Virus record (IMG/VR): IMGVR_UViG_3300033273_000233
Location: 1 to 27,902 of that record
Length of the DNA stretch: 27,902 nucleotides
Reading direction: 5' to 3' (one strand)
Source: a virus
A program made the position numbers and the translations under genes. The stretch's first letter is position 1. Each line of letters starts with the position of its first letter. The notes under the pieces were generated by a model. The model was not told the DNA's origin, did no database searches, and worked only from the letters and a program-made list of their open reading frames with translations. Of this stretch, positions 501-27,744 are shown in pieces.

Positions 501-1085
501 TTACGATTCACGGACAGTTATCAAATTGACCGTGCTGTCATGTCTGCCGAACTTACCAACAGGTATAACATTAAATGCAAGACTGCATCGTGCTTCCTCT
601 TGATGATGTGGCAAGATGATGTGATGAACATGTGATGGAAACATTACGATATCACCTTTCTTTGGAGTAAATGCAAACTGATTTGATGCTAGAACACCAT
701 TGTTTCTGTCCTGAGCACCAGATGACCAGCGCCAGGGCAGTGGATGTCTGAACAAAATGGGAGAGCATTTATCTGTAAGATACAATACACCACTGTAGAA
801 AGAATTGCAATGCATATGATCAAAACCATGTCTGAATGTAGATGTGGTCTTGGTCATCCAACTGGTGAAGATGTCATAGTTATCATAACCCATCTGGTCC
901 ATCACATTCTTAGTGATAGAATTGATAGGATCAGATAGAAAACTGAATTGATTATCCAGAACATCTATACTATAACTCATTGCACCTGCAATTGGTGTGC
1001 TCATGATAGCAGAGACTAGTTTGCTATCATCAAATTCTACTGTATCAAAGAAGAATGGACATGCAAACAAGTCTTTCCTGTTCAT
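501..1085 (-). CDS. 2OG-Fe(II) oxygenase-like protein, H-x-H type
   Basis: A 194-residue protein resembling the phage 2-oxoglutarate/Fe(II) oxygenase group of TIGR02466/PF13759. What is seen: H90-M-H92 followed by NSFYSGVLYL, then GDIVMFPSHVHH (residues 144-155, with metal-ligand candidates H152, H154 and H155), then R166 in ARCSLAFNV, which would bind the 2-oxoglutarate carboxylate. The usual H-x-D is H-x-H here. I chose the ATG at 1085, which overlaps the previous stop as ATGA and has GGGGA just upstream, rather than the in-frame ATG four codons earlier. The substrate is unknown. It belongs to a cluster with four other oxygenase genes behind the tail fibre genes. Confidence 0.8.
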   Translation of the reverse strand: MNRKDLFACPFFFDTVEFDDSKLVSAIMSTPIAGAMSYSIDVLDNQFSFLSDPINSITKNVMDQMGYDNYDIFTSWMTKTTSTFRHGFDHMHCNSFYSGVLYLTDKCSPILFRHPLPWRWSSGAQDRNNGVLASNQFAFTPKKGDIVMFPSHVHHIILPHHQEEARCSLAFNVIPVGKFGRHDSTVNLITVRES

Positions 1086-1348
1086 TGTGGTCCCCAACCA
1101 TCATTCTCAGGCACACAGTCATCATCATCAACACGATCTACTGATGCAATGTCACATACTGGCACCTCATGCTCACCACCTACAAGATACCATGGCATGA
1201 CCTGCCCATGATACTCTGGATGTGCCTGATAGTCTTCTGGATAGACACGATCACCGAGATACTTTAGTTCGGTTTCGGGAATATCGTGATCGCGTAACAT
1301 TGCTTGCAGCTGCAAGTGTGTCAGTTCTGGTTGCGTAGGTACTTTCAT
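1082..1348 (-). CDS. Small hypothetical protein overlapping the DUF4385 gene
   Basis: An 88-residue frame starting MKVPTQPELT and ending with a strongly acidic tail that contains DRVDDDD. AAGGAA lies 11 bases before this ATG. An in-frame ATG at 1390 would add 14 residues, but these (TLNTNNNARNGD) look like a shadow of the DUF4385 frame. The first 98 bases overlap the end of the DUF4385 gene in another frame, an unusually long overlap for this operon. The composition of this frame (balanced hydrophobics, LGDRVYPEDYQ) looks more protein-like than the competing DUF4385 tail. No family recognised. Its stop is ATGA-coupled to the oxygenase gene that follows. Confidence 0.6.
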   Translation of the reverse strand: MKVPTQPELTHLQLQAMLRDHDIPETELKYLGDRVYPEDYQAHPEYHGQVMPWYLVGGEHEVPVCDIASVDRVDDDDCVPENDGWGPQ

Positions 1349-1802
1349 TAGATCGCCATTCCTTGCGTTGTTGTTGGTATTCAGGGTCATATGCTGCGAG
1401 ATCTCTCACTCGTTTGAAGATTTGTGCTGCTTTTGCCTTTTGATTCGTAAGGCAGTCGGACTCAATGGGTAATACACTCCCAGTTTCTCCATATTTGAGT
1501 CCCGAACTGTGATTGGCATACCGTCTGGCACGGGTAAATCCCATTTCAAGGAATTTTCTTGCCATGTCCATTCCAACGAAATCTTGCCGTGATTTATACT
1601 CACAGAACATCTCGTATATTTTATTAGAAGATTTAGTAGCCGCTTCCTCATCTACAAAGCGCCAGTGAGCGCAAATGTCGTTAGTGTAAGGGCGTACCAG
1701 TAGCACTCCTTGCTCTCCCCTTCCAATACGATAAAGTTTGCGAGTCTCTGTGTCTGTAAAGTCAAGGTCTTCATAAGGGAGTTCATAACAGAATTCAAGC
1801 AT
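1251..1802 (-). CDS. DUF4385 family protein
   Basis: A 183-residue protein matching what I recall of DUF4385 (PF14328), a family of unknown function found in bacteria and marine T4-like phages. Key segments are YRIGRGEQGVLL (24-35), AHWRF (45-49) and the highly conserved-looking block VGMDMARKFLEMGF (76-89) with TRARRYANH (90-98). The family region appears to end near KEWRSNE (147-153). The remaining 30 residues are Ser/Thr/Arg-rich (SRYSRNRTKVSR) and overlap the next gene, which suggests an out-of-frame tail. The start overlaps the stop of the oxygenase gene upstream by 8 bases. The family name is fairly sure; the biochemical role is unknown. Confidence 0.85.
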   Translation of the reverse strand: MLEFCYELPYEDLDFTDTETRKLYRIGRGEQGVLLVRPYTNDICAHWRFVDEEAATKSSNKIYEMFCEYKSRQDFVGMDMARKFLEMGFTRARRYANHSSGLKYGETGSVLPIESDCLTNQKAKAAQIFKRVRDLAAYDPEYQQQRKEWRSNESTYATRTDTLAAASNVTRSRYSRNRTKVSR

Positions 1803-2325
1803 TCTTTGTTTTGATGTTGAAAGAGAAGATCACACGTTCTGAATCAGATTGTACTGCCTTGCACTGGTGTGTCAAGGCAGACGGGAAGAAGATAATGTCT
1901 CCTTCACTGACCTCAGGAACATACTCTATCACGTTACCCTCAATGAAGTCAAGGAATGGAGCAAAGAATGACGTAGGTTGGTGGTCACTTTCTAAACTGG
2001 CATACACGATAGCACTGTACCCTAGTGCTCCATGGTTATGTGGTGGGTGATAACCACCACGAGAATACTTCTGACCCCACACATTATGGATGTCAAACTC
2101 TTCTGGATAAACTTTATTGAATTCCTCTAATGCAGGTTTGATAACTTCAAACAGTTTGTCTGCATATGGTGGTAATTGACCTTGTTGGTGATATTTAAAA
2201 TAATCTGTTTGATGACCATCACCATCCTCAGTATCAAGCATAGCAATGAGTTCATCTTTATGATCACTCCAGTTCTCAATAGTATGTGAGAAAACTGGAA
2301 CAGTAAATGCCATTTCAATGTTCAT
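1795..2325 (-). CDS. 2OG-Fe(II) oxygenase-like protein, H-x-H type
   Basis: A 176-residue protein with a double-stranded beta-helix oxygenase signature: GGYHPPHNHGALGYSAIVY (90-108), giving H93, H96 and H98; then GDIIFFPSALTHQ (142-154), giving H153; and R164 in SERVIFSFNI as the likely 2-oxoglutarate anchor. It appears related to the oxygenase at 501-1085 (the same H-x-H and FPS..H arrangement), but the two are divergent and not a recent duplication. The start forms ATGA with the previous stop and has AGGAA upstream. It is expected to be a soluble cytoplasmic enzyme in the infected cell; its substrate is unknown. Confidence 0.8.
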   Translation of the reverse strand: MNIEMAFTVPVFSHTIENWSDHKDELIAMLDTEDGDGHQTDYFKYHQQGQLPPYADKLFEVIKPALEEFNKVYPEEFDIHNVWGQKYSRGGYHPPHNHGALGYSAIVYASLESDHQPTSFFAPFLDFIEGNVIEYVPEVSEGDIIFFPSALTHQCKAVQSDSERVIFSFNIKTKNA

Positions 2326-2702
2326 TCTGGTCTGTTCCTACCTGCTCGTAGTTCTGCATTCTCATATTCTATCACACCACTGGGTGCAACGACATAACAA
2401 TGATACCAATACGTATCATCATCTACTTCATCCTTCCTAGGGAAGTAATCCATTACAAAATCTTCAGCAACCTGTGGATTTCTAAACTCAATGTATCCAT
2501 AATACTTACTCTCCATTAGTAGAATAAGTTCTGCTGGAACTTCTTCGTCAAGTTTGTAGTAATCAACGACAATAGATTTAGCGGCATCATCTGCTACCTC
2601 AAGTCTTGGGTTCTCCCAATACACTAGAGCACCAGCATTTGCAGCCGCTTCCTCAATTTCATCCCAATTCCTAGCACTATCAAATGTCTGTAGGTTCTGC
2701 AT
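2322..2702 (-). CDS. Hypothetical protein, 126 aa
   Basis: An acidic 126-residue protein with alternating beta-type segments (AKSIVVDYYKL, ESKYYGYIEFRN, YWYHCYVV) and no recognisable motif. The start ATG is supported by GAGGA about 6 bases upstream, and the first 23 bases overlap the preceding oxygenase gene. It sits between two oxygenase genes, linked to both by overlaps, so a shared function is possible but unproven. I do not recognise the family. Confidence 0.7.
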   Translation of the reverse strand: MQNLQTFDSARNWDEIEEAAANAGALVYWENPRLEVADDAAKSIVVDYYKLDEEVPAELILLMESKYYGYIEFRNPQVAEDFVMDYFPRKDEVDDDTYWYHCYVVAPSGVIEYENAELRAGRNRPE

Positions 2703-3213
2703 CTGTATCCTCTACTTTCTTTAATTTATAAGCTGCAGTGACTCTAATGCCATAAAACTCTCGTGTCACGTCTTCTGCATAGTGCAGCATGTTTGATGGG
2801 AACATAACAGCGGACCCAGGTTTGGGAAATACTGCATCAAATCTACCATCATCTTGCACAAAGATAGTTTTTCCACCCCATGTGAGATCCCACACAGGAT
2901 TGCAGAACAATAAGAATGTGTAATCTGCATCATCAGTATGCATATAACCATCCAGTGCTCTTGTGTGACCATTGACATAATAGTCAAGGATCTCTACTTT
3001 AAATGGTGATAACTTATGGATCTTCTCTGGAATAGTCTTATCAAACAATGATGTTCCTTTGACTTCCATCTTCCAGAACTTTTTATGTGGTGCAGAAACA
3101 CAGCTAGTAGCACCAAATTGCCAGCGAGGACGACTTACAATTCTATCAACTTCATCCATTTCTCCTTGAGTCATGATAGTGTCCCAAGATTTAATATCAG
3201 TTAGAAGTGCCAT
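2680..3213 (-). CDS. 2OG-Fe(II) oxygenase, prolyl 4-hydroxylase-like
   Basis: A 177-residue protein with a complete canonical iron and 2-oxoglutarate site: H92-T-D94 in GYMHTDDADYTFLL, WGGKTIF (112-118) as the strand that usually carries GGxT/E in this superfamily, H144 in MFPSNMLHYAEDV, and R157 in YGIRVTAAYKL. The order and spacing fit the PF13640/prolyl 4-hydroxylase-like group. Such enzymes couple oxidation of 2-oxoglutarate to hydroxylation of a protein or small molecule. The C-terminus is acidic and overlaps the next start. One base separates it from the preceding PKHD-type gene. Confidence 0.85.
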   Translation of the reverse strand: MALLTDIKSWDTIMTQGEMDEVDRIVSRPRWQFGATSCVSAPHKKFWKMEVKGTSLFDKTIPEKIHKLSPFKVEILDYYVNGHTRALDGYMHTDDADYTFLLFCNPVWDLTWGGKTIFVQDDGRFDAVFPKPGSAVMFPSNMLHYAEDVTREFYGIRVTAAYKLKKVEDTDAEPTDI

Positions 3214-3214
3214 G

Positions 3215-3862
3215 TCAATTTCTAAAAATACTACTACGTCTAATGATACCCATACGAACCAAGTCTAGTTCTCTGAGTGTCTCACCATCAAGTTGATCGT
3301 GAATCTTATTATATACACGATTAAGACCAAGAATATATTCTCTCATGAATGGATCACTAACAGAACTCTCAATCCAAAATGTGATACATTTTCTCACACC
3401 AGATGTGATAGGTCTTACACCATGAATGAACTCAGTAGGATACACCAGCATTCTACCCGCTGCTGGTTTCTTCTCAACTACTTCAGTTCCAATATTGATG
3501 TAATGCTCACCACCTTCAAAATCATCATTTAGATTAATAACAGCAGTATAATCTGTCCTGCAACCATTCATCTCAAAGAAGTCTGAATGATCATAGTAAT
3601 GCTGCCCTTCTTCATACTTCAGCATGAGACAAGGAGAACACTTGTTTAGTGGAATCTCCTTACACATCTTAGATGTTCGCATAATCTTGGCGATGCCAGT
3701 ATTGACCATTTTATTGATCTCAATGTCATCTTGCTGAGTATTATCTTTGACCTTTTTATCTTTCGGTCCTGATTTTGCACCATCAACAAACTTGCCAGCA
3801 TCAAAAAGACTAATCATCTGTCTCAATTGATTACTATCAAGGAAATCATATTCATGAATCAT
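3215..3862 (-). CDS. PKHD-type Fe(II)/2OG hydroxylase
   Basis: A 215-residue protein with the pattern of PiuC/YbiX-like PKHD hydroxylases (PF13640): KYEEGQHYYDHSDFF gives H92-S-D94, DFEGGEHYI (114-122) follows, YPTEFIHGVRPI supplies H147, and R157 in SGVRKCITFWIES would bind 2-oxoglutarate. The full triad and arginine are present, so it is probably active. Residues 1-75 form a charged N-terminal part with Cys-containing segments (C67, C75, C78). The start overlaps the previous stop as ATGA, with CAGGTG upstream. The substrate is unknown; in this context a phage or host protein side chain is one possibility. Confidence 0.88.
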   Translation of the reverse strand: MIHEYDFLDSNQLRQMISLFDAGKFVDGAKSGPKDKKVKDNTQQDDIEINKMVNTGIAKIMRTSKMCKEIPLNKCSPCLMLKYEEGQHYYDHSDFFEMNGCRTDYTAVINLNDDFEGGEHYINIGTEVVEKKPAAGRMLVYPTEFIHGVRPITSGVRKCITFWIESSVSDPFMREYILGLNRVYNKIHDQLDGETLRELDLVRMGIIRRSSIFRN

Positions 3863-4191
3863 GTGGTAACACCTGCTAAACTCTTAATAAATTGATCCAC
3901 TGCATCTTTATATGTCTCAGTGATATTATCCAGTGGAGCACAAATGTTCAAAATCTTATCAAATCCAACAAGGAATGATGTGTCACGAGAAAAGAACTTC
4001 CATGGAGTTAAGGTGACACCAACTCTCTGTTGAGAGATATCACCTGCTCTGGAAATAGTAAATGGATAAACTAGATTATAACATAACTTCTGTTCAACAC
4101 CATCAACTTCTTCTACATGATCTTTTACATTAGCGATCACCTCTTCCCCAGTAATCAGTGTGAGGATGAGAATATTAACTTTGTTTTCCAT
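3859..4191 (-). CDS. Small conserved-looking phage protein, possible Sm-like fold
   Basis: A 110-residue protein beginning MENKVNILILTLITGEEVIANV. The pattern of a strand, a TGEE turn, a second strand, then CYNLVYPF and VGVTLTPWKF resembles the small Sm-like beta barrels of RNA-binding proteins, and I recall similar small proteins in cyanophage genomes; this is an inference from pattern only. The C-terminal 30 residues look helical. It lies 2 bases after the tail-chaperone gene and overlaps the PKHD hydroxylase start. The role is not known. Confidence 0.7.
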   Translation of the reverse strand: MENKVNILILTLITGEEVIANVKDHVEEVDGVEQKLCYNLVYPFTISRAGDISQQRVGVTLTPWKFFSRDTSFLVGFDKILNICAPLDNITETYKDAVDQFIKSLAGVTT

Positions 4192-4193
4192 GA

Positions 4194-5036
4194 TTAAACG
4201 TTACTTTCTTGTACTGCTCGTAGGAGTGCTTCTAGTTCATCTTGGTCGTCAGTGAAGTTCTGCGTGAAGTTAGCAGGTTTGAAGATTACATCAGGGTTCT
4301 TGACCTTATAGTTAGATGCAATCGTCATGACGATTCTCTTAGCATACTCACCATATGTTGTTGCTGAGAAGATACCAAACTGATCAGATGTAGCAAGGTA
4401 TTCTTTACCTTCATTAACCAGTTCATCATTGTCACCACGTTTTGTGAGAAATCTAGCATACATGACAGGATTGATTGGGAATCTTACCTCATCAGCATCT
4501 TGACCATCATAATCTTGTGGTAACTGTCTCAGTTTTGTTCTGTATGCTGTCCATTGTGCTTTAAGATCAGCATCAATAGCAGCATCAGGCATCTGTGTCC
4601 AGTCACAATCAGCAAGGAGGAAGTTTCTGATCATTCTAATACCTTCCCATGAAACCTTATTCCATCTGCCATACTCATTAAATAGCTTCTCTTGGATGGT
4701 TTCTTGGTCAGAGTCTTGGAACTCAAAGTATTTCTCTTTGAGTCTTTCTGCAACCTCTCTTACCTCTTCATTAGTTGGTTCTCTCCACTCATATGTCTTC
4801 CACTTTCTTTCTTTAGTGGCACGATCATAGACATACTTTTTCTTCTCAATACCATATGATCCATCACTGAAATAATTCAGGTGAATCAAACGGTCTAGAT
4901 CAGATGTCCAGAATGGGAACAGAATATTTTGGATATTGGCATTCCAATAGTCCTCATCAATAAATTCTGTCTTACCATCAACGATGATAATTCTTTCTAG
5001 TGCATTGACTTGCACTACTACACGAATGTCTGCCAT
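4194..5036 (-). CDS. Tail assembly chaperone (APC) domain protein
   Basis: A 280-residue protein when started at MADIRVVVQV (5036), just after the stop of the oxygenase gene; an ATG at 5114 lies inside that gene and is less likely. Residues about 136-174 (RNFLLADCDWTQMPDA through QWTAYRTKLRQLP) closely match the phage tail assembly chaperone domain PF16778, which typically accompanies tail fibre genes. The N-terminal 90 residues (WNANIQNILFPFW, KKYVYDRATKERKWKTYEW) look like a separate beta-rich domain I cannot name, and residues 185-280 form a third part. It probably helps fold or assemble the fibre proteins encoded just upstream. Confidence 0.75.
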   Translation of the reverse strand: MADIRVVVQVNALERIIIVDGKTEFIDEDYWNANIQNILFPFWTSDLDRLIHLNYFSDGSYGIEKKKYVYDRATKERKWKTYEWREPTNEEVREVAERLKEKYFEFQDSDQETIQEKLFNEYGRWNKVSWEGIRMIRNFLLADCDWTQMPDAAIDADLKAQWTAYRTKLRQLPQDYDGQDADEVRFPINPVMYARFLTKRGDNDELVNEGKEYLATSDQFGIFSATTYGEYAKRIVMTIASNYKVKNPDVIFKPANFTQNFTDDQDELEALLRAVQESNV

Positions 5037-5040
5037 TAGA

Positions 5041-5661
5041 TTAAGGGAGTTTGATGAACCAGCCTGTCGCAATATATTTATCATGGGTGAAGACAGTGTT
5101 CCCACGATGAACATGTGTCATTCCTGCTGGCCAGATCAGCAATGTACCTGTCTGTGGTTTGTATCGTTTCTTTTGATACAAGAATTCTGTCTCTGCTTCA
5201 CCATCTGGCATGTCATTTAGATACACCATCCATGCCAATTCTCTGTTCGCTGCTCTAAAACTAGAGTTTTCATAATGCCAAGTATGATAACCACCGCCAG
5301 GTGGTGTCTTTTGAACTTTCAATCCAATAGATCCTAGTTTAACTCTACTGAGGTGATCATACTCTTGTCTATAGTTTTCAAATGCAGAGTTGAGATACTT
5401 ATAGAAATGAGTAGCAAGACCCATATCAACATCATCTAGCATAATGCTAACATCATGTCGTGCTAGTTTCTTCTCTGGCATTTGTTCCATGCCATATTGA
5501 ATAATTTCTGGATTGATCTCAAGATAACGTTCGAAGTTAGTTACAATAGCAGAACAAATTTCATGATGTACAAATCTTCTATACACACCAATAAAATCAT
5601 CAAACTTTCCTTCAATCCTATCAGGATCAATGATCAATCCACTCTCACTTGCTGCTAGCAT
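5041..5661 (-). CDS. 2OG-Fe(II) oxygenase, H-x-E type
   Basis: A 206-residue protein with a helical N-terminal half and an oxygenase core: GGGYHTWHYENSS (122-134) offers H129-Y-E131 as an H-x-E iron motif, AWMVYLND (143-150) and ETEFLYQKKRYKPQTGTLLIW form the barrel strands, and PAGMTHVHRGN supplies H183 or H185. The usual 2-oxoglutarate arginine may be replaced by K195 in HDKYIATGW. The gene is sandwiched between the polyglycine adhesin (TAATG overlap) and the tail assembly chaperone, which makes modification of a fibre protein an attractive but untested idea. Confidence 0.8.
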   Translation of the reverse strand: MLAASESGLIIDPDRIEGKFDDFIGVYRRFVHHEICSAIVTNFERYLEINPEIIQYGMEQMPEKKLARHDVSIMLDDVDMGLATHFYKYLNSAFENYRQEYDHLSRVKLGSIGLKVQKTPPGGGYHTWHYENSSFRAANRELAWMVYLNDMPDGEAETEFLYQKKRYKPQTGTLLIWPAGMTHVHRGNTVFTHDKYIATGWFIKLP

Positions 5662-8600
5662 TAATACGCTCTGATCATGTACTTCACTAAATGATAGCGT
5701 GTCAAGAGAGGAATGTCAATCTCTGGAGACAATGTTGATGTAACATTTAGTTTCACAGCAGATGACAGGGTGAATGTGCCCTCATTAACATCTAAACCAG
5801 CAGAGCTTAACGGATTGCCTTGTGGTTCAATACGCTCAGTAATAAATTCAATGCCAAGATCCGCCTTACCAGAAGGATATGTTGTGATAGTTTGCTCTAC
5901 TTCATCATGTTGGAACTCAACGTAATCAATACCGAAGTTATCACCATCAGAATTACCACTGCTACTTCTTGTTTGTCTAACTTCTAACAAAAGATTATTT
6001 ACTTGGAATGTAGTAGGAATGGGAACATCAACAAATGTCCAGGTTGTTGGACCAGAAGCAGAAGATATTGTACCGATTTTAGTAAAACTACCACCACTAT
6101 CATTACTTGCAAATAGTTCTAGTGGTTCCCCTGGTGCCTCTCCACCATTGCTACCATTGCCACGAATTACTCTAAATCTAGCATTGATGATTGGAGATCC
6201 CTTACTATTACTTGAAGATGCATTAATAGTAACAGTTCTTGCCCACCTAACTGCTTCATTTCCAAAGAATCTCAAATACTTCTCAGCATCTGTGGATTGG
6301 AATCCACCATTAGATCCACTACCCGTACCAGATTCAATGTAATCTACCGTTGCACTAGCAGAATCAAACAGTCCAGATGTTACAGATGTACCAGTACCAC
6401 CAGGAAGTTGTTGAGTAACAGTATAACCTACACCACCTTCACCATTAGCACCACCATTAGTTCCACCACTACCAACAACCAAAGTACCAGCATTAATGTT
6501 AGTGGGTCCAGTGATATTGAAGAAAAGATAGCAAGCAGATCCTCCGCCGCCGCCTCCAGAACCATAATATGTTTGGTTCTCGGTTGCCTTCATAATAACC
6601 TTTCCAGATCCGCCATCATTCTGCTGACCTATTGATACAGTACCACCATTGCCAGCATCTCCCTGCGATGCAACTGTTGCGGTTGGACCAGATCCACTAT
6701 TCTTAACAGCAGATTGTCCTCTATATCCACCAAAACCATCTCTACGGGCATTGGAACCGTTTCCGCCGCCGCCACCACCACCGATGCCAGAACCGATGCC
6801 AGTGCCTCCACCACCACCGCCTCCGCCGCCGCCAGAGCAGACAGAGTTACCGCCGTTGTTACCAGATCCAGAGAAGATACCACTTAGGTTTTGTACAGCA
6901 TCAGTTGATCCGTTTGGTTGACCATTCTGGTCAGCACCTTGTGATCCATCACCAGCGGCACCACCGCCACCACCACCACCAGCACCAGCGAGAACAGCAG
7001 ACGAAGTACCAACTGAGGAAGCACCACCACCGCCTCCGCCGCCTCCGCCGCCAGTTCCGTTACCACCATTACCACCAGAAGCGAAACCTACACCACCAGT
7101 TCCACGAGTTCTACCATTACCAGCATTACCGCCGCCACCAACGTAAATTCTTAAAGTACCAGTGCTACCTTGATTGATATTGGCAATAACTTTTTTACCA
7201 GATCCACCATTACCAGCGTGCCAACCGCCACCACCATCACCAGTACCACCAGATCCACCGCCGCCGCCCCAGATCTCTGCCTGAAGTTGATCTAGTGGCC
7301 AAGTGGTTGGGACATTATATGTGTAGAAACTACTGGATGGACTAGCAAATGTGTCCTCAACTAGATTTGTCCCTGTGAATAATGTTCTTGAACCATCGCC
7401 ACCTGCTCCACCAATATAACTGGAAGCACCACCAGTACCACCTGCTGAAGGACTACCATTTGTTGCATTATTGCCAGGATAAAGCAACTGAACATCAAGT
7501 GTAATACCACTTTGATTATAAGTGGTAGCTGTTGTAAGATTTACTGTTGTACTACCAGCGACTAATCTTGCAGTGCCACCAGAACCTCCAGCTCCTCCTC
7601 CATTACCACTTGTTCCACCAGTACCACCATCGGCATATAAAGTAAAATTAGTACCACTATAACTGAACTGATAGTATGTACTCCCTCCATTAGTACCATT
7701 ATTTTCAGTGGTTGCACCGCCACCACCTGCACCACCTAGGTATCCAGAAATACCCTGAATAGGTAGTTCCTCTGCATCTGGTGCTGGAACAGTATATGAT
7801 CCTGGCGAAGATTGTTGTGATTTATATACTGTAGTTGTCTGTTCTCCACCAGGAATAATGATAGTTTTACCACCAATTGTGTATGAGTTATCAATATCAA
7901 ATACAGTTGGTGATGGAGTTTGAATAACGGTTGTTGTATCGGCAGGTAAATTACCAGCAATCTTGTAACCTAACTCCAATACAATAGCTTCACTAGCAGA
8001 TCCATTTGTTGTAGCAACCAGTGCATTACCAAGTCTTGCATCATACTTAGTTTTTGCAATAGAGAATGTATTCTCATCAATTACAATTACATACCAAACA
8101 GTATTTGCAGCAAAAGCAATTTGCTGTGACCCATATGTAAATGATGCTTGTGTTGTTTGTTCATTAGACTGAACTCTGATCATATTACCAGTGAATAGAT
8201 CATGACCAGGAACATTGAATGTTGTTGATGTATTAATTCCAACAATAGCAGATGCTGTAATGGAGACTGTTTCTTTCTCACCAACACCAGCAACGTTACC
8301 AAAAGTAGATAGGTTAGGATCAGTAATAACGTAATCAACAATACCATGAGTGTGGAACAATGGAGACCCACCATTTGGTAAGAAGAAATTAACCTGACCT
8401 GTAGAGTTTTTGTATCCAACAGAATGGTTATCTGCGAAGAATCCAGCACCTTCAAATGCACCTGCCTCTGGTGCTGTTGATGTTAAAATAGCATGTTCGT
8501 GTTCTGGAACAGCAGAAATCATTTTTTCCTGCAGTGGTCCAACAACTAGAGTTACTTCACCATCTAAGGTTCCACCAACAAATTCCTGAACATTAGTATA

Positions 8601-9875
8601 TCCAGAGATAATAATATTTCCAATATCAAATAATGCTTCCTGTTGAGTTTTAGAAAAGAACCATCTACCACCAGTAGCACCAACAGTAGAGATAACATTA
8701 CCAGATACTGGAGATCCACCACCACTGACTCCACCACCAGCACCAACTAACTTTCTTGCCTTATAATCAGGCACCTTAAATGTTACCGTACTACTAGTAC
8801 CAAAGTCTTCTTTATCAAAAGTACCACCAGATCCACCATAATCATCAGATAAAACTTCGTATAATAGTGGATAATCTTGTGCATCATATTCAGATCCATC
8901 ACAATACAACCATCCAGGATATTGCATTGCTGGATCAGTAGCAGTTGTAGAAGATGTATTAACAACCTCAACTCTAGCAGTTCCACTGCTTCCTGGTTGT
9001 AGAATATACACTACATCACCATCAGAATATCCATATCCTGGGTTCTTAATTGTAACAAAATTGACACTGCCATCTAGATTAGCAGCAACACCAACAGTTA
9101 ATCCAAATCCTGTACTTGACGCAACTTTAAAAGTGCCAGCAGATCCCAGATCAGTTACATTATAGTATCTACCTGCAGCAATATCACCATTACTTCTAGC
9201 AAGTCTAAAACTATTTGCATCAATGTAATCAACGTAGAAAGTGAATCCATTCTCAAATGCAACACCACCTTGACCACCTGCAGATAATGTTGCAGTAGCC
9301 GCAGCACCGCTGCCGTTACCACCAACAAATGAAACTTGTGGGAATTGATAACCAACACCACCATCAGTTACAGTAACACCAGTTACCTGACCACTGCCAT
9401 TAATAACAGCAGTAAAAGAACCACCACTTACAGGACCACTACCAGTATCAGTTACCTGAACGAGAGGAGCAGCAGTATATCCAGATCCACCATTAGTAAC
9501 TGCAATTGTAGCAATAGATCCACCCAATGCCGTTTTGTTTGGTTGCTGATCTGCTTGAACTACTGTTAGTTTATCACCCTCAATAAAAGGATGACCAGTG
9601 AAATTAATTTGTTCTGAAGATACAGAGAAATTACCAGGAGCAAATGTTAATGTAACTGGACCAGTAGGATATCCAGCTACAGTTCCTAGATCAGTGGTAT
9701 ATCCTGATCCTCCACCCGCACCAGCAACAACAGAACCTAGACTAATAACAACACCATTATCAGTGATCTTATCATCATCTGCCTTAAAAATAGGCACAAT
9801 AGCACCGATTGGCATTGTCGTGTTGCCAAAAGTAGATTTATCTGTCAGAAAGTTAGAACGAATATTTCTTGGCAT
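5661..9875 (-). CDS. Tail collar / polyglycine-rich fibre adhesin
   Basis: A 1404-residue virion-type protein. Residues 1-310 hold repeated GGxGY units (GGGSGYTT, NGGSGYTAAP, DGGVGYQFP, NPGYGYSDGD). Around 318-375 is a phage tail collar domain (GWLYCDGSEYDAQDYPLLYEVL, then TFKVPDYKARKLVGAG). About 700-1130 is extremely glycine-rich, with runs of 7 to 11 Gly. The last 270 residues are a non-repetitive beta-rich C-terminus ending LVKYMIRAY, similar to the ending of the 395-aa collar protein. Gly-rich sequence of this kind forms stacked polyglycine II helices in the gp38 adhesins of T-even phages (known); I infer a similar receptor-binding tip here. One base separates it from the preceding collar gene. 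Confidence 0.82.
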   Translation of the reverse strand: MPRNIRSNFLTDKSTFGNTTMPIGAIVPIFKADDDKITDNGVVISLGSVVAGAGGGSGYTTDLGTVAGYPTGPVTLTFAPGNFSVSSEQINFTGHPFIEGDKLTVVQADQQPNKTALGGSIATIAVTNGGSGYTAAPLVQVTDTGSGPVSGGSFTAVINGSGQVTGVTVTDGGVGYQFPQVSFVGGNGSGAAATATLSAGGQGGVAFENGFTFYVDYIDANSFRLARSNGDIAAGRYYNVTDLGSAGTFKVASSTGFGLTVGVAANLDGSVNFVTIKNPGYGYSDGDVVYILQPGSSGTARVEVVNTSSTTATDPAMQYPGWLYCDGSEYDAQDYPLLYEVLSDDYGGSGGTFDKEDFGTSSTVTFKVPDYKARKLVGAGGGVSGGGSPVSGNVISTVGATGGRWFFSKTQQEALFDIGNIIISGYTNVQEFVGGTLDGEVTLVVGPLQEKMISAVPEHEHAILTSTAPEAGAFEGAGFFADNHSVGYKNSTGQVNFFLPNGGSPLFHTHGIVDYVITDPNLSTFGNVAGVGEKETVSITASAIVGINTSTTFNVPGHDLFTGNMIRVQSNEQTTQASFTYGSQQIAFAANTVWYVIVIDENTFSIAKTKYDARLGNALVATTNGSASEAIVLELGYKIAGNLPADTTTVIQTPSPTVFDIDNSYTIGGKTIIIPGGEQTTTVYKSQQSSPGSYTVPAPDAEELPIQGISGYLGGAGGGGATTENNGTNGGSTYYQFSYSGTNFTLYADGGTGGTSGNGGGAGGSGGTARLVAGSTTVNLTTATTYNQSGITLDVQLLYPGNNATNGSPSAGGTGGASSYIGGAGGDGSRTLFTGTNLVEDTFASPSSSFYTYNVPTTWPLDQLQAEIWGGGGGSGGTGDGGGGWHAGNGGSGKKVIANINQGSTGTLRIYVGGGGNAGNGRTRGTGGVGFASGGNGGNGTGGGGGGGGGGASSVGTSSAVLAGAGGGGGGGAAGDGSQGADQNGQPNGSTDAVQNLSGIFSGSGNNGGNSVCSGGGGGGGGGGTGIGSGIGGGGGGGNGSNARRDGFGGYRGQSAVKNSGSGPTATVASQGDAGNGGTVSIGQQNDGGSGKVIMKATENQTYYGSGGGGGGSACYLFFNITGPTNINAGTLVVGSGGTNGGANGEGGVGYTVTQQLPGGTGTSVTSGLFDSASATVDYIESGTGSGSNGGFQSTDAEKYLRFFGNEAVRWARTVTINASSSNSKGSPIINARFRVIRGNGSNGGEAPGEPLELFASNDSGGSFTKIGTISSASGPTTWTFVDVPIPTTFQVNNLLLEVRQTRSSSGNSDGDNFGIDYVEFQHDEVEQTITTYPSGKADLGIEFITERIEPQGNPLSSAGLDVNEGTFTLSSAVKLNVTSTLSPEIDIPLLTRYHLVKYMIRAY
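6530..7290 (-). repeat. Low-complexity GGN-codon tract coding for polyglycine
   Basis: On the plus strand the DNA is dominated by CCN triplets with several near-perfect runs of ccg/cca/cct, for example around 6760-6840, 6957-6990 and 7015-7053. These encode glycine runs near residues 941-954, 962-973, 1013-1040 and 1103-1116 of the 1404-aa fibre. The third codon position varies, so the tract appears kept for its protein sequence and is not a simple slipped DNA repeat, although slippage could still change its length. Confidence 0.85.
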
Positions 9876-9876
9876 C

Positions 9877-11565
9877 TTAGGTTTTAATTAGGTAATCTAC
9901 CATGATGAAGGGAGCGATGAGACTGTCTATCTTGGTATCAGTTTCTGCTTGAATATTAACAGAAGCTTCCATACCATCAGTAGAAATAAATGTCTCTGGT
10001 ATATTTAACTCATAATTCGTCAATCCTGTCTGATAAGTGATAGTATGAGTGTGTTGAGTTGGATCATCTTCATAATCAAATGGTTCCGTTGTCTCAACAA
10101 TGTTTGAGATCTGAGGATATGCAATAGATGCTGAATTATCTACAGATGTATCAAACGGAAGCATATCATGCAACGAAGTGTTGTGAGCATATCCAGCAGC
10201 ATCAGATGAGTTTGCAAAAGATGTAGTATCTACTCTCACACTAAATGCATTTGCACCAGCAGAACTAATAGCATAACCACCAACATCTGGGAATGTTAAA
10301 ATATCACCAGGAGAATATCCAGTACCTCTATCAACCCAAGCAATAATCTTATACCTAGTATTGTTGGGGTTTCCACCAGCTCCAGGATATGCTTCAAATC
10401 TGACAGTAGCACGAGCACCAGTGCCAGTTCCACCATTTAAATCAACATCACCTTGAGCAAAATCAGACAAGTTAGTCCATAATACTGATCCATAGTTTGA
10501 TAGTGCCCACTGTCCTAAACCTTTTCCATAATATCCAGCACCATTGGTAGTCTGATAATTTTCATACAACGAAAAACCTTGAATAGCACCACCACTACTA
10601 CCCGCTGTGGTTGGGATGTTATCATTTGAAACACCACTAGCACCCTCAACATAGTTTGCAGCAACAGTTCTAGAACTGCTAGCACATGCCATCTCCACAG
10701 TAATGAAGAGAATTGTTTGGAAACAAGGTCCTTCAGGTGTAGTATCTACATTATAAGATTTTCCTGTTGGAACCAAACAGTTGTTGATAAATCCACCACA
10801 AGATCCTTTACAAATACCATAATACTCAAACGATGCACCGAAACTAGATGAGATATATGCACCAGTTGCCCAAGTTTCAGACTGAGCATAATACTTACAT
10901 GCTGGTTGCTCTGTCGTGGCATCATACCAATTAACAACGCCAATTGTTGATGCATTAGTATAATAGTTCAATTCAAATACATCACTACCAGCACGCCTAA
11001 TTGTTCTACATCTATACGTGGTTGTATAGTGAGCGTGTGGTAAAAATGCCTGTGCAGATACAATTTCTTCGTCTGGTGCTCTTGGTCTAGTAAAACCAAC
11101 GTTACCTGTCAATTGTACAGTTCTAGGAGGAACTCTAAACTGACCAGTTAAATCAATAACCGCTTGAGCACCAACGTTAGATGACACATTAACACCAACG
11201 CCAGATCTTTCAACTGTCTGTCCATTGGCATTGGTCACAGTGCTATCATTAATAACACCTTGGTCAGATGCAGAACTAGCTCTAATAAATTTAGATCTTA
11301 AATCAGGAACTTGAAACTGTGTATCTAATAATGTTACCCCTTCCTGTCGAAAAGCACAAGACGCACCAGTTCCTAAAATTTCTGCTAGTGCTGGATATGT
11401 ATTTTCGTTGTAGATAGATCCATCACATCTCAAATAACCAGATGGCAATAAACTTAAACTCAATCCAGCAATAGGATCATTAACATCCAACTCTCTGGGA
11501 AATGCAATGAGCGTTCCCGTAGTCGTTCCGATCTTCGTTCTTTCTTGGTTTAAAAAGACTGGCAT
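9877..11565 (-). CDS. Phage tail collar domain fibre protein
   Basis: A 562-residue structural protein. Near its N-terminus (about residues 40-95) it has a phage tail collar domain (PF07484): SGYLRCDGSIYNENTYPALAEIL, then FQVPDLRSKFIRAS. A further His-containing strand, QAFLPHAHYTT, is typical of these fibres, in which histidines may bind metal in the trimer. The middle has many cysteines (CKYYAQ, GICKGSCGGFINNC) and a DRGTGYSPGDIL unit like the GGxGY units of the 1404-aa neighbour. The C-terminus ends FIMVDYLIKT. Spacing to both neighbours is a single base, so translational coupling is likely. Probably a short tail fibre or baseplate-attached adhesin. Confidence 0.85.
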   Translation of the reverse strand: MPVFLNQERTKIGTTTGTLIAFPRELDVNDPIAGLSLSLLPSGYLRCDGSIYNENTYPALAEILGTGASCAFRQEGVTLLDTQFQVPDLRSKFIRASSASDQGVINDSTVTNANGQTVERSGVGVNVSSNVGAQAVIDLTGQFRVPPRTVQLTGNVGFTRPRAPDEEIVSAQAFLPHAHYTTTYRCRTIRRAGSDVFELNYYTNASTIGVVNWYDATTEQPACKYYAQSETWATGAYISSSFGASFEYYGICKGSCGGFINNCLVPTGKSYNVDTTPEGPCFQTILFITVEMACASSSRTVAANYVEGASGVSNDNIPTTAGSSGGAIQGFSLYENYQTTNGAGYYGKGLGQWALSNYGSVLWTNLSDFAQGDVDLNGGTGTGARATVRFEAYPGAGGNPNNTRYKIIAWVDRGTGYSPGDILTFPDVGGYAISSAGANAFSVRVDTTSFANSSDAAGYAHNTSLHDMLPFDTSVDNSASIAYPQISNIVETTEPFDYEDDPTQHTHTITYQTGLTNYELNIPETFISTDGMEASVNIQAETDTKIDSLIAPFIMVDYLIKT

Positions 11566-11566
11566 T

Positions 11567-12754
11567 TTAGTAGGCTCTGATGATCATGATCACGGTCTGT
11601 GATGGAGTTTGATTGTCCATAAGAATATTTAACGCATCTGGGATGTCAGATACATTAACCGTGTAGGATTGTACGTTATTTACAGCGATATTTGGTGGAA
11701 TTCTTAATCCACCTCTATTCATAGAAATGTCAAAACTAAAGTGAGTGTGAGTAGCAAGAGTTGCATCCGTAGAGTCTTGTGCAGAGTGACTCAAGTTAGT
11801 TGGATATGTAGTTCCAACATCACCATTCAAATAGTTTGGTTTGCCAAACATTTCAACAGGAACTGGAAACACACCAGTATGCTGTTTCAAATAGTGATTG
11901 TAGTTGTATGTGTCACTAAACGCTTGAGTGTATGCACCAGATGCAGGAATAGTTCTAGTAAGACCCGCAGCAGGAATCTGATCCTGAGTAAATGTTTTAG
12001 TGCTATCAGTCAAAATCAGAGTGTTTTCATCATAATATGTAATGCCACCAGCACCATTTCTCCATGTATCAGCACTATCAGAACTTGTAATACCAGACAA
12101 GTTTGCAGATTCGTAGTTTGGAGATCCAGATACCTGTGCAACTGGTGCTTCAAATACCTGAACATACTTACCACTAGGAAACGCAGTTGTATATTGACCA
12201 CTGTGTTTGTGACCAGGAGTATGGTCAATGCCCAGTTTTCTGCCTACGGTATAATATGTTTTAGACCATGTAGGATCATTCAAAGTAATGTTTTGAATCT
12301 TACCTGCCATGGTATCAATTGGATCCAACTGAAATCCAAGATCAGTATCAGCACTGTAAATTGTAGGTGGAGTAACAGCAGTTCCATCACCCTCAATCAA
12401 ATCTCCAACAACAGCATCTGCATCTGACTGACCAAACTGATAAGCAGGATCTGACAGATAAGTTCTCTCAAGGTCGACCATTGACCTACCATTTAAATTA
12501 GGAACTCTAAATTGATCTGATTCGTCATAGTCAGGAAAGTTCCCGACGATTGAAGTATCTGTAGGACCATATGTATTTCCAATAACAGATGCTAGCAGTG
12601 GAAATTGTGTGGCAGGAAATGATCTGCCATCACAAACAATCCACCCAGTAGGAATATTGTCTGGATTATTTCCGTTGCTAGAGTTACCACCCCAGGGCAT
12701 GATAGTGCCAACTGGGGCAGACTTCATAGTCTTTAGTCTGTTGTAGAAAGCCAT
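11567..12754 (-). CDS. Phage tail collar domain protein, 395 aa
   Basis: Starts MAFYNRLKTMKSAPVGTIM and continues with a clear tail collar domain: TGWIVCDGRSFPATQFPLLA followed by FRVPNLNGRSMVDLE (about residues 36-100). Later segments carry His-containing fibre strands (DHTPGHKHSGQY, ATHTHFSF), and the C-terminus is VIMIIRAY, shared in form with the 1404-aa protein. The start overlaps the stop of the giant gene by one base (TAATG) and has no good ribosome binding site, so reinitiation after the giant gene is likely. The protein resembles short tail fibre proteins of T4-like phages in layout but is shorter than T4 gp12. Confidence 0.85.
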   Translation of the reverse strand: MAFYNRLKTMKSAPVGTIMPWGGNSSNGNNPDNIPTGWIVCDGRSFPATQFPLLASVIGNTYGPTDTSIVGNFPDYDESDQFRVPNLNGRSMVDLERTYLSDPAYQFGQSDADAVVGDLIEGDGTAVTPPTIYSADTDLGFQLDPIDTMAGKIQNITLNDPTWSKTYYTVGRKLGIDHTPGHKHSGQYTTAFPSGKYVQVFEAPVAQVSGSPNYESANLSGITSSDSADTWRNGAGGITYYDENTLILTDSTKTFTQDQIPAAGLTRTIPASGAYTQAFSDTYNYNHYLKQHTGVFPVPVEMFGKPNYLNGDVGTTYPTNLSHSAQDSTDATLATHTHFSFDISMNRGGLRIPPNIAVNNVQSYTVNVSDIPDALNILMDNQTPSQTVIMIIRAY

Positions 12755-15700
12755 TAGAGTTCAGTTAACCACCAACCTTGATAGACAGCAGGAATAAAGT
12801 TGTCTCCATCAGATTGTCCAACGTAAATGAGACCGAAAGAAGCATTTCTGTTTTGAACAACTAATTCACCAGATCCATATGCTGTAGATAGACCACCCAA
12901 CTTAGTTCCAGAAGTATCTCCTTGGAGTGCAACTGGTTCGCCACCTACGATTGGAGCACGAATTACGAGAGAGTTGTTGTAAGTCAATGCTCCAGCAACT
13001 TCAGTAATTCTGATAACGTCACCCGTTTCAGGATTAGATGGTAGAGTTAGGATAAGAGCACCAGTAGAAGGTGCTACTGCTACAATATAATTTATATTGA
13101 CAGAGAGGGTGGAATTTGCATTAACGAATGTTGCCTTGTGACCACCATTTTTGTTCTTCCAACCAGTGTATCCAAATGCGTCAATAGAACAATCTTGCTT
13201 GACAGTTAGAGACTTGGTTCCACCATCACCGAGATTTCTAATATCAAGGATCTTCGTAGTGTTAGAAGCAGTTGTAGATTGAATGCCATTAACATCAAGC
13301 AATCTACCAACGAAAGTATCACCAAATTCTGGTTCAACTCTAAATGTTGGTGTGAATGTCTTATTAGTGAATTGAATAGCATTTGGATCCTCAACACAAG
13401 TAGTTGGGAAGATTCTCAACTGACCACTAATATCAGTGCTTGCGTTAATATCAAGTGCGCCAGCTTCAAAGTGGTGTTCTTCGTTGTTGATCAACTTAAG
13501 GATAGGTACATTGTTATCTGTACCAGTGATCTCGAAGTTAGAACCAACAAACTTAACATCATCATATACAGTCAAGCGACCATGATGATAATCTTTCTTG
13601 ACTAGAACTGTACCACCATCATTGGTGTTAGAGCTAGTAACAAAGAAGATTTCGTTGTTGATTACGATCCAATATTCACGATCAAGGAAGAATGGAACAA
13701 CATCACTATTCTCCATTCCAATTTCAACAGAAGTAGAACCTGTTGCAGGAATTGCAGAAGTCAGAACAGTATTCTCTCTGAAGAGAATTCTGAATACGGA
13801 CTCACCATCTTGGTGAGTCTGATTAGTTCCAGGAACATTAGTTAGAGATGCTACACGAGTGACAGGCAAGTTACCAGCAGGTGCAGTACCGCTAGTTGTT
13901 GGATTGCCATTGATCTGCATGATCTCTTCATTACCACCAGATCCATAACCAACAAAGATGAAGTCTCCATCTTCGAAGTTAGTGATGTCATCAACAGGAA
14001 TTGTTGTAGCACTGGTTGTAATAGTAGCAACAGTATTAACAAATGTAGTTGCAATGCCGTTATCAACCTTTGGATCCTTGAGGATAGTATAAACTGTATC
14101 ACCAGCAGCATGTGCCTGTGCAACAGTTCCATACTGAGATCTAGATGCTAGAACAACACCACTTGGGTTACCGATTACAGTGTCACCACTGCAACCATCG
14201 ACAGTGAAGATATCACGGACTCTATCAGTAATTCTAAACTTCTCGTCCTTAGTTGCTCTAAAGGAAATGCCAGTTGCATTTCCAGAACCAGTAAATGGAA
14301 GGTTAAGTGTTACAGTGCTACCAACAATGCTTACAATTTGAGGATCAGATAGTCTGACCTCACCAGAATCAGATGGGAATCTGTTCTGCTCAAGTGTAAC
14401 TGTACCACCGTTAGATACGAGTTCAACATAATCACCAACCTCAAGTCCATCAACAGAAGGAATAGCAGTAATTGTATTGAGTCCTTCTTGTGCATTACCA
14501 GTGAATGTTTGAGCAGAAGCAGTCTTACAACCACCCTTGAATTCAAACGAACCATTGATGGTTAGTTTTCCATTTTCACCGTCAATACCATCGTTACCGA
14601 CGACTGTTTCACCAGTGACGCTATCAACAGAGAAGACAACATCGCCATTTGGACAACCATTAGTGATTTCAAACTTCTTATTAACAATTGATAGAGCAGT
14701 TGCAAGTTTAAATGCTTCACCCTGGTTGAAGTCTCCATCATCGTTGGTGTCTTCGCGAGAAATAATAACATAATCAACACCAATGTTGAGTGTTCCACCA
14801 AATGTTGCTAGATATACATTTTCTTCAGCAGATGCATCTCTTGTTCCATCAATTGCTTGCTCGATCCATGTAGCATCGAATGCAATATTGACTTTATAAA
14901 CAGAAGTTCTGTTTCCTGGTTCATCAGGGTGTGTGTCAATCTGAGGAGCAAAGGAACCAAGTGGTTCTCTCTCAACAGTTACATAATAAGGAGCAGTTTC
15001 AGCACCAACTAGACCACCAGTTGCGATACGAACGATCTCAGGTCTGGTGTTGTTACCTACATCAACTGGAGCATCAAGAATTAGATAATCACCCTCATTA
15101 AAGTAACCTGCAACAGGTGCATTTAAGAGTGGTAGATAGTATTGATTGCCAGTTAGTGCAGGTAGATCAGCACCTTCAGGACCTGCGCCAGGTTTGGTTG
15201 CTTGGAATGTTGCATCACCCCATGTTGCAGAACCTGCGGTATCAATTCTGTTGTATCTAGAATCAGAAGATGGCAACTGAAGAACATTAACAATGTCAAT
15301 GTTCTGATTGAATGATGTAGGTCCAAGGATACCAGATGCGTGAGCAATAGCAGTTGTCCCTAGAGATTGTCCAACACCAACAAAGGAGAAGGAAGAAGTA
15401 CCACCACAGAGTTTGACACTGCTGTTGAATGTAGTCTCACCATCAATCTCAAGACTGTTTCTGATAGTAGTTGTACCACCCTGACCAGCAATATTAACTT
15501 CAGAAGCATTAGTAGCGAAGTCAATTGTCTGAGTATTTCCAGAGAAGAAGCTAACAATACCTGCTTCAGTACCGATAGTTACAACTTGTTCTGCGTTGAG
15601 TCTATCACCACCAAGTTGCTTATTAGCACCAAAGATTACATCACCAGCAAACTTGGTTTGTCTGACTTTGAAATCAACAAAGGATAGAGAAGAAACACGA

Positions 15701-18700
15701 TCATAAGCACCACCCATGGTGATCTTAGAAATCGCTGCATCTTGATCAATGTTACCGATAAAGATGTTAGAATGGTTTGCAGAATTACCAATCTTAACGA
15801 ACTGGTCACCAGTAGACTTATCACCAATGTAGACCCACTGAGTAGAAGTGGTGTTGTAATCACCAATTCTAATAGTCTTAGCGTAACCACCAATATGTAA
15901 ACCAGCAGCATCATCTCCACCAACAAATGTGCTATCATTGAAGAGATTAACAGTTCCAGTTGTGATATCAGTTCTGACTTCAGCAAGTGTGCCGTCGCCC
16001 TGAACTTCAATGTCACGCTCAAACTGTACATCTTCAGTGAATCTTGCATCACCCTTGACAACTAGTGCTCTGTTAAGTTCAGAATTTTCAGCGTTGATAC
16101 CAACTTTACCATCAGCAACTGGTCTTCCAGATTCTAATGGTGTAGAAGTTTCGGTAGAAACTCTTAGGACTGCCTCATCATTAGGAGCAGCACTGTCACC
16201 ACCAACAATCAGAGCATCAGAGATTCTATTCTTGTCGCGATCAGCGAAGTTTGCATGATCAAGGAAGTCGGGTGTGTTACGACCACTGATGTATGCATTA
16301 CCAACAACATCAAGGTTTGCACGAGGATCAGTTGTGAGGTTATCAACCCAAGCATTTGCATTTGCTTCATGTGGTGCTCTAGCAACAGTGTTAATACCGA
16401 GTTTGTAGTTACCAATGGTCTCTGTCTCAGTTCTGAGTGCTTCAGCACCAATTACACCAACTTCCTTGAAGTTAGCGTTAGAGAATTCAATTGTAGGAGC
16501 ATCAGAACCAACAGCAGTTCCAGCAATGATATCTTCCCATGCTTGAGTAGATTGTGGAATCTGATCAATTACTTGGAAATGAACGTAGTTGTTAGTTGCA
16601 ACGAATGGATCACCTGGCTTCGCAGCATAAACAGTCCAAGTTAGGTTCAGTCTAGGATCAAAGTAGAAGTTCTTGATTCTAATCTGAGAAGTAGATGTAA
16701 TACCAATATCAGTTCCAGCAGCAAGGGCAATGCCACTATCGAAATCTCTAAACTCAATCTTGACAACGTTAGAACCGTCAAAGACGATGTTGTCAATTTG
16801 ATTGTTGGCAATCGTAGAGAAGTAGTTTGCAAGAACCCATGCAATCGATCCGTTCTTACCAACTTCAGATCCCTTGAATAGAACGTCACCAGGAGCAGGT
16901 AGGACACCACCATAAGTGATATACTGAGCAGAATCGATTCTAGTACCACCATTAGCAATCAATGCAGACTGGTTTGGTGTTCTGTTAGATGCAATTCCAG
17001 CAACGGTATGTGTCTGGAACATGTACTTCTGACCATTTCCTCTAGCATTGAACTGGAATACAGCAGCCTGTACTTTGTTCTTGCTGATTCTGATGTCACC
17101 CTCAGTTGGTGGCGAGAATGCAGTTCTGTCTAGACTCTCATCTTGCTCAAGTTGTGTAACAGGATCAACCGAAGTTACGTTAGAGCGGATGATTAGTGCA
17201 TCACGAGCTTGAGTTAGATCAGCATCCTGAACAGCAACAATCAGTGGAGATTCAAATGTATTGACTAGTTCTCCATCACCACCAACAACAGTAATATTCT
17301 GGTTGAATGTTACAGGTGTGTCAAAGGTAGTAACGAGACCGCCAATGGTATCATCCTCGTCTCCATCATCTGCAAGAACTGCAGCATCAATGAATGTCTC
17401 TTCACCAGTAATAGCGTTGATTCTTCTGTTACCAATGTAGAGATCACCTTGGGAGTTAATACCAGTGTAGAAGACGATACCAGCGTCCTGTTTCTTACTT
17501 TGGGCATAGAAGTCCTCTTCAGGAGTTAGAACGACTTCCTGACGCGCTGGAAGACCTGTGGAGTAGTTACCAGGACCGAAACCAAGGTATTCAAACGTGT
17601 GGTTACCAGCACGAGCGATAGATGGTCTTCTAAGTTCAACATAGTAACGTTGATCAGAGAGAACTGTGCTATCACCAGAGATAGGAATTAGACGATCTTC
17701 AGAACCAGAAGTTGCGTTACCATCCTGTGCTTGAATTGCATTCGCACCACTATAGGTGTTCATGATGAATGCAGGTTGGTTTGTTAGATCTTCGACAAGT
17801 TCTCTAGTTACAGAGTTCTTGAAGTCATTAACCGTAACAAGACCATGGATATAGTTGTCAGCAGCAGAGAATGCAGCAGGTGGATCAATTAGGTTTGCAT
17901 AGTAATCTTTTTCTGCCTGAGTTGTACCAGAGTTCTTGAACCAAAGAGGATCGTTTCTGTAGTTCAGAGGATACAGTTTGCTGACTGGTTGAGAGAACTT
18001 AAACTTCTTAAAGTTGTTGGTTACACCAGCACCAGTTGGGAATGGCGAGATGTTACCACGGAGTGCAGTAATATAGTAGATACCATCTTGCTGACCAGCA
18101 ATTCTGCGCTGTAGGGTCTCATAACCGAAGATGTAGAAGGTGTCTTCGATGACGCCTGCATCCTCAACACTATCAACATAGTATTCAACACCTGCGCTGT
18201 CTTGAATACGATCACCAGGAGTGATGGTATAAACGTTAGCGCCGTTTTGCTTGTAGAAAAACTGGGGATTATTTTTTGCAATTTGGGTCTTCAGTGGTAG
18301 CGATTTGCCCATATCCTGGTCTTCCAGCATATCAGCAAAGACAGTACCCTGAGTAAATCTGGTGTTAGCAAATTCACTATACTCAAGAACACCACCACGG
18401 ATATTCTTGATGATGAGATAATGCTCACCATTTACAGTGTAGTAAGCATGGATGTTTGCAAGACCAGAAGAATTACCAGCGAAACTGACAGCATTATCAG
18501 AATTTGCCTGATTTTCAGTCTTGCTTACTTCAAAGTTACCACCCTGTGGAGCAGTGATCTTAACAGTTGTTAGAATCTCGTTTCTTAGACCAGGGAAATT
18601 TTTTGTATCAATTGTGTGATCATTGACAGTTAGTTCGAGATACTTGATAGAAGAATCAAGAACGTCCTCCACATAACGAGCAGATTGAATAGTTGCCTGA

Positions 18701-27161: not shown

Positions 27162-27169
27162 TATTTATA
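27162..27169 (-). promoter_or_regulatory. T4-type late promoter for the giant gene
   Basis: The minus strand reads TATAAATA, an exact match to the T4 late promoter core, in the only sizeable non-coding gap upstream of the giant gene. The ATG is 36 bases downstream, leaving room for a leader of about 28 bases. The motif sits inside an inverted repeat (TCGGT/ACCGA). It probably drives the giant fibre, the collar genes and perhaps the whole cluster. Confidence 0.8.
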
Positions 27170-27580: not shown

Positions 27581-27665
27581 AGTCTGAATACTTCTTTGAA
27601 ACAGATGTAGATGTAGTAGAACTGTTCGCCCCACGTTACATCTCCACGCAATTTATTTAACATAA

Positions 27666-27738: not shown

Positions 27739-27744
27739 ATGTAA

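Follow-up and report, generated by a model that had tools for sequence, protein, structure and literature searches.

In a 27.9-kb stretch of viral DNA (IMG/VR record IMGVR_UViG_3300033273_000233, positions 1 to 27,902; here called the window), five genes for predicted 2-oxoglutarate (2OG)-Fe(II) oxygenases lie beside the tail fibre genes. The oxygenases were designated P1 to P5, and the tail assembly chaperone encoded next to P5 was designated TAC. The genes are all on the minus strand, in the order giant fibre, three collar-domain fibres, P5, TAC, DUF6561, P4, P3, a 126-amino-acid (aa) protein, P2, DUF4385, a phrog_2020 protein and P1. Throughout this series, which begins with the giant fibre start at 27126, neighbouring genes overlap or lie at most 4 nt apart. 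The initial annotation had described five oxygenase-fold genes on one strand, packed into an overlapping operon with a chaperone and the fibre genes, and this description was borne out. Among annotated genomes the nearest is that of cyanophage S-RSM4, with 71% identity across 82% of the window's first 6.5 kb; it holds four of the five oxygenases (P2-P5), and the window additionally has P1 and the DUF4385 protein. The features of the locus are:

27162-27169, minus strand: T4-type late promoter motif TATAAATA, 36 nt before the start codon (ATG) of the giant fibre gene
12754-27126, minus strand: giant fibre/virion protein, 4790 aa, in the position of SRSM4_214 of S-RSM4 (annotated as short tail fiber protein)
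11567-12754, minus strand: collar-domain short tail fibre, 395 aa (collar-domain profile)
9877-11565, minus strand: collar-domain fibre protein, 562 aa (collar-domain profile)
5661-9875, minus strand: collar-domain fibre protein, 1404 aa, Gly 20%, directly upstream of P5 (PF07484)
5041-5661, minus strand: P5, core fibre-linked putative 2OG-Fe(II) oxygenase (PF13640, phrog_61; H129-x-E131, H183, K195)
4194-5036, minus strand: TAC, tail (fibre) assembly chaperone (PF16778/phrog_4697)
3859-4191, minus strand: DUF6561-like small protein between TAC and P4 (PF20198)
3215-3862, minus strand: P4, PiuC/PKHD-like putative oxygenase (PF13640; H92-x-D94, H147, R157)
2680-3213, minus strand: P3, phrog_274 putative oxygenase (PF13640; H92-x-D94, H144, R157)
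2322-2702, minus strand: 126-aa protein between P3 and P2, conserved in relatives
1795-2325, minus strand: P2, PF13759 putative oxygenase (H96-x-H98, H153, R164)
1251-1802, minus strand: DUF4385 protein (PF14328)
1082-1348, minus strand: phrog_2020 small protein (the open reading frame (ORF) opens at 1390; the profile favours the start at 1348)
501-1085, minus strand: P1, second PF13759 putative oxygenase, a rare accessory member

The position of P5 was compared in the best 80 of 574 relatives from viral contigs, a P5-anchored sample that favours close orthologues and of which 79 were scored. TAC was the gene directly downstream of P5 in 78 of these 79 environmental relatives, and in 76 the gene directly upstream encoded a protein of 300 aa or more, which was a collar fibre in those compared; two of the three upstream exceptions were P5 loci ending at the contig end. 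A converse search was anchored on TAC, a non-oxygenase, by single-protein queries and was scored at loci with a readable upstream gene. P5 lay between fibre and TAC in all 17 loci with the window-type TAC. With the S-WAM2-type TAC, a large protein was directly beside TAC in 53 of 62 loci and P5 occupied that spot in 7 of 62, and the S-PM2-type TAC query yielded two relatives only. The TAC tree requires at least two changes of P5 state. Among isolates, the order fibre-P5-TAC-P4-P3, ending in a PF13759 enzyme, is kept in S-RSM4, S-CAM4, S-PM2 and Sf-CH1b; Syn1 shows the same order as far as P3, S-H9-1 shows a partial order (fibre-oxygenase-TAC-oxygenase) and S-WAM2 has fibre and TAC without P5. 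The initial annotation had proposed to look for linkage to fibre genes in related phages; such linkage was found, and for P5 it is close to absolute. A collar fibre followed by a PF16778 protein resembles the fibre and adjacent fibre-assembly chaperone of tailed phages, a pair that is directly adjacent in S-WAM2-type loci, whereas in the window an oxygenase gene separates them. The near-constant position of P5 between a fibre and its folding helper suggests that the host-recognition fibre is chemically modified by these phages.

The oxygenase set is a strictly nested module, with P5 as its core and with P4 and P3, then a P2-type enzyme and then the rare P1 added downstream. Among 44 loci with P5, TAC and at least 3.5 kb of downstream sequence, P5 was alone in 7, was joined by P4 in 1 and by P4 and P3 in 15, and was accompanied by P4, P3 and a PF13759 enzyme in 21; close homologues of P1 were found at three loci only. 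This modular presence contradicts the earlier suggestion that the five enzymes work as one unit.

All five ORFs scored above the Pfam gathering cut-offs for 2OG-Fe(II) oxygenase families, in agreement with PHROGs. P1 and P2 matched PF13759 (E 7e-14 and 5e-12), and P3 (E 1e-6; 29.8 bits, cut-off 27), P4 (E 4e-14) and P5 (E 3e-10) matched PF13640. Their ratios of non-synonymous to synonymous substitution (dN/dS) against close environmental relatives were about 0.03-0.15, indicating purifying selection, and judged from sequence they are not chance ORFs. Pairwise identity among P1-P5 was 20-26%, which agrees with the view of the initial annotation that they are too divergent for a recent duplication; since P5 and its orthologues from other phage genera are 43-49% identical, the split between the five would predate those genera. 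The HxD/E...H metal triad is present in P3 and P4 as HxD and in P5 as HxE, and the Arg or Lys that would bind the 2OG carboxylate, located beyond the distal His, is invariant (K195 in P5, R157 in both P4 and P3, R164 in P2). Metal and 2OG ligands, with roles assigned from the superfamily, did not vary among the distinct orthologues compared (85 for P5, 67 for P4 and 53 for P3). A double-stranded beta-helix was predicted for P5 and P2 in AF2 models (predicted local distance difference test, pLDDT, 87 and 90), and the structures that these models matched included hundreds of 2OG oxygenases.

The best Foldseek matches of the P5 model were vCPH (5c5t), P4H (4j25/4iw3) and PHD2, and a profile search of P5 likewise pointed to prolyl hydroxylases. 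Protein prolyl hydroxylases of the P4H/PHD type are thus the closest fold neighbours of P5, and of P5 only. The enzyme vCPH of chlorella virus PBCV-1 was the top match in both searches (fold E 9e-11, template modelling score 0.59/0.66; profile E 2e-4), and Lys is the putative 2OG ligand of P5. In contrast to vCPH, to which it is about 17% identical, P5 has HxE, and its neighbouring fibres have no collagen-like repeats. The next best folds, the EF-Tu-modifying P4H of Pseudomonas putida (4iw3) and human PHD2, are likewise single-domain prolyl hydroxylases, but P5 is only about 16% identical to them, their substrates differ and there is no evidence that P5 targets EF-Tu. On its modelled fold, protein-hydroxylase chemistry is plausible for P5. 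P4 aligned over its full length with 3dkq (E 5e-10) and 9ghl (E 3e-8) and kept HxD/H/R, as in the PKHD-type hydroxylases PiuC/YbiX; its score of 111 bits on NCBIfam NF003974 was, however, below the cut-off of 143, and by these alignments P4 is a distant PiuC/YbiX relative only. An open-access literature search on PiuC and FlmC yielded no relevant papers.

The motif TATAAATA is the T4 late promoter motif. The exact copy before the giant fibre gene is the only one in the window; as one copy is about the chance expectation over the whole window, its weight rests on position and strand. Scans of the window for sigma-70 promoters and terminators gave numbers at about chance level.

We propose that, in the fibre operon of this T4-like marine cyanophage, P5, a putative Fe(II)/2OG enzyme with a prolyl-hydroxylase fold, would be made late, on a transcript shared with the collar-domain fibre and TAC, and would hydroxylate at least one residue of the preceding fibre or, less likely, of the chaperone. 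By fold, Pro would be the first choice of residue, and Asn, Asp or Lys are possible. The reaction would take place during folding of the fibre or ahead of its trimerisation, and fibre stability or receptor binding would be tuned as the outcome. P4 and P3, and then P2 and P1, would have joined later, with other sites of the fibre or the host surface as their targets. That P5 hydroxylates the neighbouring fibre, or TAC, in late assembly, with the other enzymes accessory, is a proposition to which we give an even chance. The more specific version, in which a fibre-maturation hydroxylase sits inside the fibre/chaperone pair, the host-recognition fibre is hydroxylated and further hydroxylases are nested in some lineages, is preferred tentatively and with somewhat less than even confidence. 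We infer catalysis, substrate, residue and any effect on adsorption.

The 1404-aa collar-domain fibre is the leading candidate substrate. The large proteins upstream of P5 that were compared have common collar-region homology and a C-terminal motif. P5 distances tracked fibre distances with TAC controlled (partial r 0.47, permutation p 0.001), a mirror-tree value that can also stem from shared ancestry, which can inflate the P5-fibre correlation and is one of several points that weigh against hydroxylation of the fibre. No fibre domain or composition specific to P5 was found, as fibres with and without P5 have the same domains and similar Pro contents (4.8 versus 4.6%); thus, no substrate motif emerged. 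Homologous fibres also occur without P5 (S-WAM2 type), indicating that P5 is not essential for assembly, and since both kinds of fibre share domains and composition, P5 would tune assembly rather than enable it. Collagen-like GXY runs (at least five) are absent from the 1404-aa and the 4790-aa fibres, which rules out a collagen-type substrate. Small-molecule enzymes score close behind the prolyl hydroxylases for P5, and fold cannot prove substrate. The open-access literature held nothing relevant on fibre hydroxylation in phages and no biochemistry of these enzymes. P1 and P2 carry HxH...H and not the classical HxD/E...H triad. The pattern HxH...H...R was invariant in 25 aligned PF13759 proteins, the relatives of P2, indicating a family trait and not decay, and it suggests a three-histidine metal site unlike the classical triad; P1 and P2 are here assigned to PF13759 without being counted as proven 2OG oxygenases. 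The folds nearest to P2 were 3bvc and 2rg4 (uncharacterised), followed by 6n1f and PiuC-type enzymes.

The distribution of oxygenases elsewhere in phage genomes bears on the proposal in both directions. Twenty phage genomes held from 0 to about 20 oxygenases each. With a cluster-preserving circular shift in eight genomes, the number of oxygenases no more than 5 kb from a collar/TAC marker was 25 of 70, where 6.9 were expected (p 6e-4). The three genomes that had not been picked via a P5 match gave 6 of 29 against 2.5 expected (p 0.13), and as they were non-significant alone, the strong claim is limited to P5 and its neighbours. In favour of the proposal, dense oxygenase clusters recur next to other fibre genes: between fibre genes in S-SM2 (36.9-39.4 kb), around a 7-kb fibre in S-SSM7 and beside a second long fibre in S-RSM4. 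In Syn9 and S-SM1 a cluster lies several kb downstream of fibre genes. Against it, many oxygenases are found among replication or metabolic genes (P-SSM2 128-141 kb, P-HM1). As many are far from fibre genes, a general rule of fibre linkage for all cyanophage oxygenases was rejected, and linkage is a property of certain orthologue groups and not of the superfamily.

The oxygenases might instead have glycans or lipids of the host surface, or small molecules, as substrates, for example to block superinfection or change receptors, and would lie near the fibre genes because the locus is a host-interaction module. This would be in line with the resemblance of P4 to PiuC/PKHD enzymes, with the antibiotic-tailoring enzymes HygX and SnoN among the fold neighbours of P2 besides uncharacterised proteins, and with the location of S-SSM7 oxygenases among sugar-nucleotide and carbamoyltransferase genes. 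Fe(II) oxygenases of metaviromic islands of marine phages have also been tabled under 'host recognition', with no mechanism (PMC3909814; Front Microbiol 2014). We regard a host-surface target as unlikely, though deserving of attention, since it leaves unexplained both the exact position of P5 between fibre and chaperone in nearly all relatives and the late operon shared with the fibres. Alternatively, the region downstream of the fibres could be a passive hot spot in which insertions of unrelated function are tolerated. The variable, nested presence of P4, P3, P2 and P1 downstream of TAC and the many oxygenases elsewhere in the genomes would be expected from such a hot spot, but P5 lies between two partner genes in an order fixed across distant lineages, the order P4-then-P3 is maintained and purifying selection is strong, which makes this explanation rather improbable.

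The published proposals, a 2OG sink and DNA repair, fit the data poorly. Sullivan et al. 2010 (PMC3037559) put forward modulation of 2OG/NtcA on the grounds of NtcA sites and the multiplicity of the genes; in this view, 2-oxoglutarate would be lowered or rerouted in infection, via NtcA signalling or succinate supply. A sink of this kind requires neither a divergent, substrate-coupled set of enzymes nor a link to fibres and predicts no synteny; it is considered very unlikely here. Repair or modification of DNA or RNA by AlkB- or TET-like enzymes has been proposed in cyanophages by Weigele et al. (cited in PMC3037559), and RefSeq labels the P3 orthologues (phrog_274: S-PM2p230, SRSM4_206, S-CAM4 gp227 and others) as 'DNA endonuclease V'. 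However, the Pfam models of AlkB, TET and endonuclease V matched neither the window proteins (E<1) nor six P3 orthologues (E<0.1), nucleic-acid enzymes were absent from the top 50 Foldseek matches of P5, and the 2OG ligands of P3 are invariant, leaving this as the least probable explanation of all. For P3 itself, endonuclease V was rejected as a probable annotation error in view of the PF13640 match, the invariant HxD...H...R and the lack of an endonuclease Pfam match. The 'ferrochelatase' label of P-SSM2 piuC looks equally doubtful, as a PF13640 match was found at 27992-28255. A role in defence was also rejected, PADLOC having matched just a generic CRISPR-associated 2OG domain.

The occurrence of several such oxygenases in marine T4-like phages, which the initial annotation had mentioned, is documented for 14 of 16 cyanophage genomes (PMC3037559). 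Numbers reach 24 per genome, as in S-SCSM1 (PMC9602691). No function has been tested for these enzymes, which were known by 2010 at the latest. P2-P5 resemble oxygenases of T4-like cyanophages (T4-GC 28, 240 and relatives; phrog_61, phrog_81, phrog_274), and their orthologues are already annotated in S-RSM4, S-PM2, Syn1, S-CAM4 and others. The order fibre-P5-TAC differs from published accounts of cyanophage oxygenases as 2OG modulators, DNA repair enzymes or auxiliary metabolism, and no description of it was found in the open-access literature, subscription papers being outside the search. The multiplicity of the enzymes was already known. The arrangement narrows the question to which fibre residue is hydroxylated. 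If fibre hydroxylation by P5 is true, the receptor-binding apparatus of the phage would be modified enzymatically, providing a control of host range that is invisible in the fibre gene sequence, and part of the large class of 'auxiliary metabolic genes' would turn out to serve virion maturation. Homologous fibre and chaperone pairs occur both with P5 in between and without it, and the lineages concerned provide a natural experiment.

Among the neighbouring genes, TAC matched PF16778 (Phage_tail_APC domain) with E 6.5e-13 and 48.8 bits (cut-off 26.6). Its ORF reaches 5114, but its start was corrected to 5036 on the basis of the profile and the 4-nt gap to P5. The DUF4385 gene (phrog_5325, 1251-1802) is found not only in oxygenase-rich loci but also, with 86-88% identity, in loci of the S-WAM2 type that lack P5, indicating that it moves independently of the oxygenases. 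The giant virion protein gene takes up about half of the window and has orthologues of 10-14 kb in S-RSM4, S-CAM4, S-PM2, S-H9-1 and S-WAM2. A tRNA-Asn gene lies upstream of it at 27665-27739, comparable to the tRNA cluster of S-RSM4 and S-H9-1. The window has no oxygenase just upstream of its giant fibre gene, while an extra 2OG oxygenase was found there in S-PM2 (165610-165849), S-H9-1 (30970-31581) and Sf-CH1b (21896-22192), in which the fibre module is thus flanked by oxygenases on both sides.

Further clusters were observed in other genomes. S-RSM4 (NC_013085) has a second cluster of about eight oxygenases at 89336-95006, directly downstream of another long tail fibre and near g13-g15. 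The pelagiphage HTVC008M (NC_020484), with about 16 oxygenases in a 147-kb genome, carries about five oxygenase-type genes at 56808-59681, on the strand opposite to their neighbours and beside genes annotated as baseplate wedge initiator. In Syn9 (NC_008296), two tryptophan halogenase genes lie at 32965-36070, with tail fibre assembly genes on one side and a cluster of seven oxygenases on the other, and another modification of fibre or surface is possible for these halogenases.

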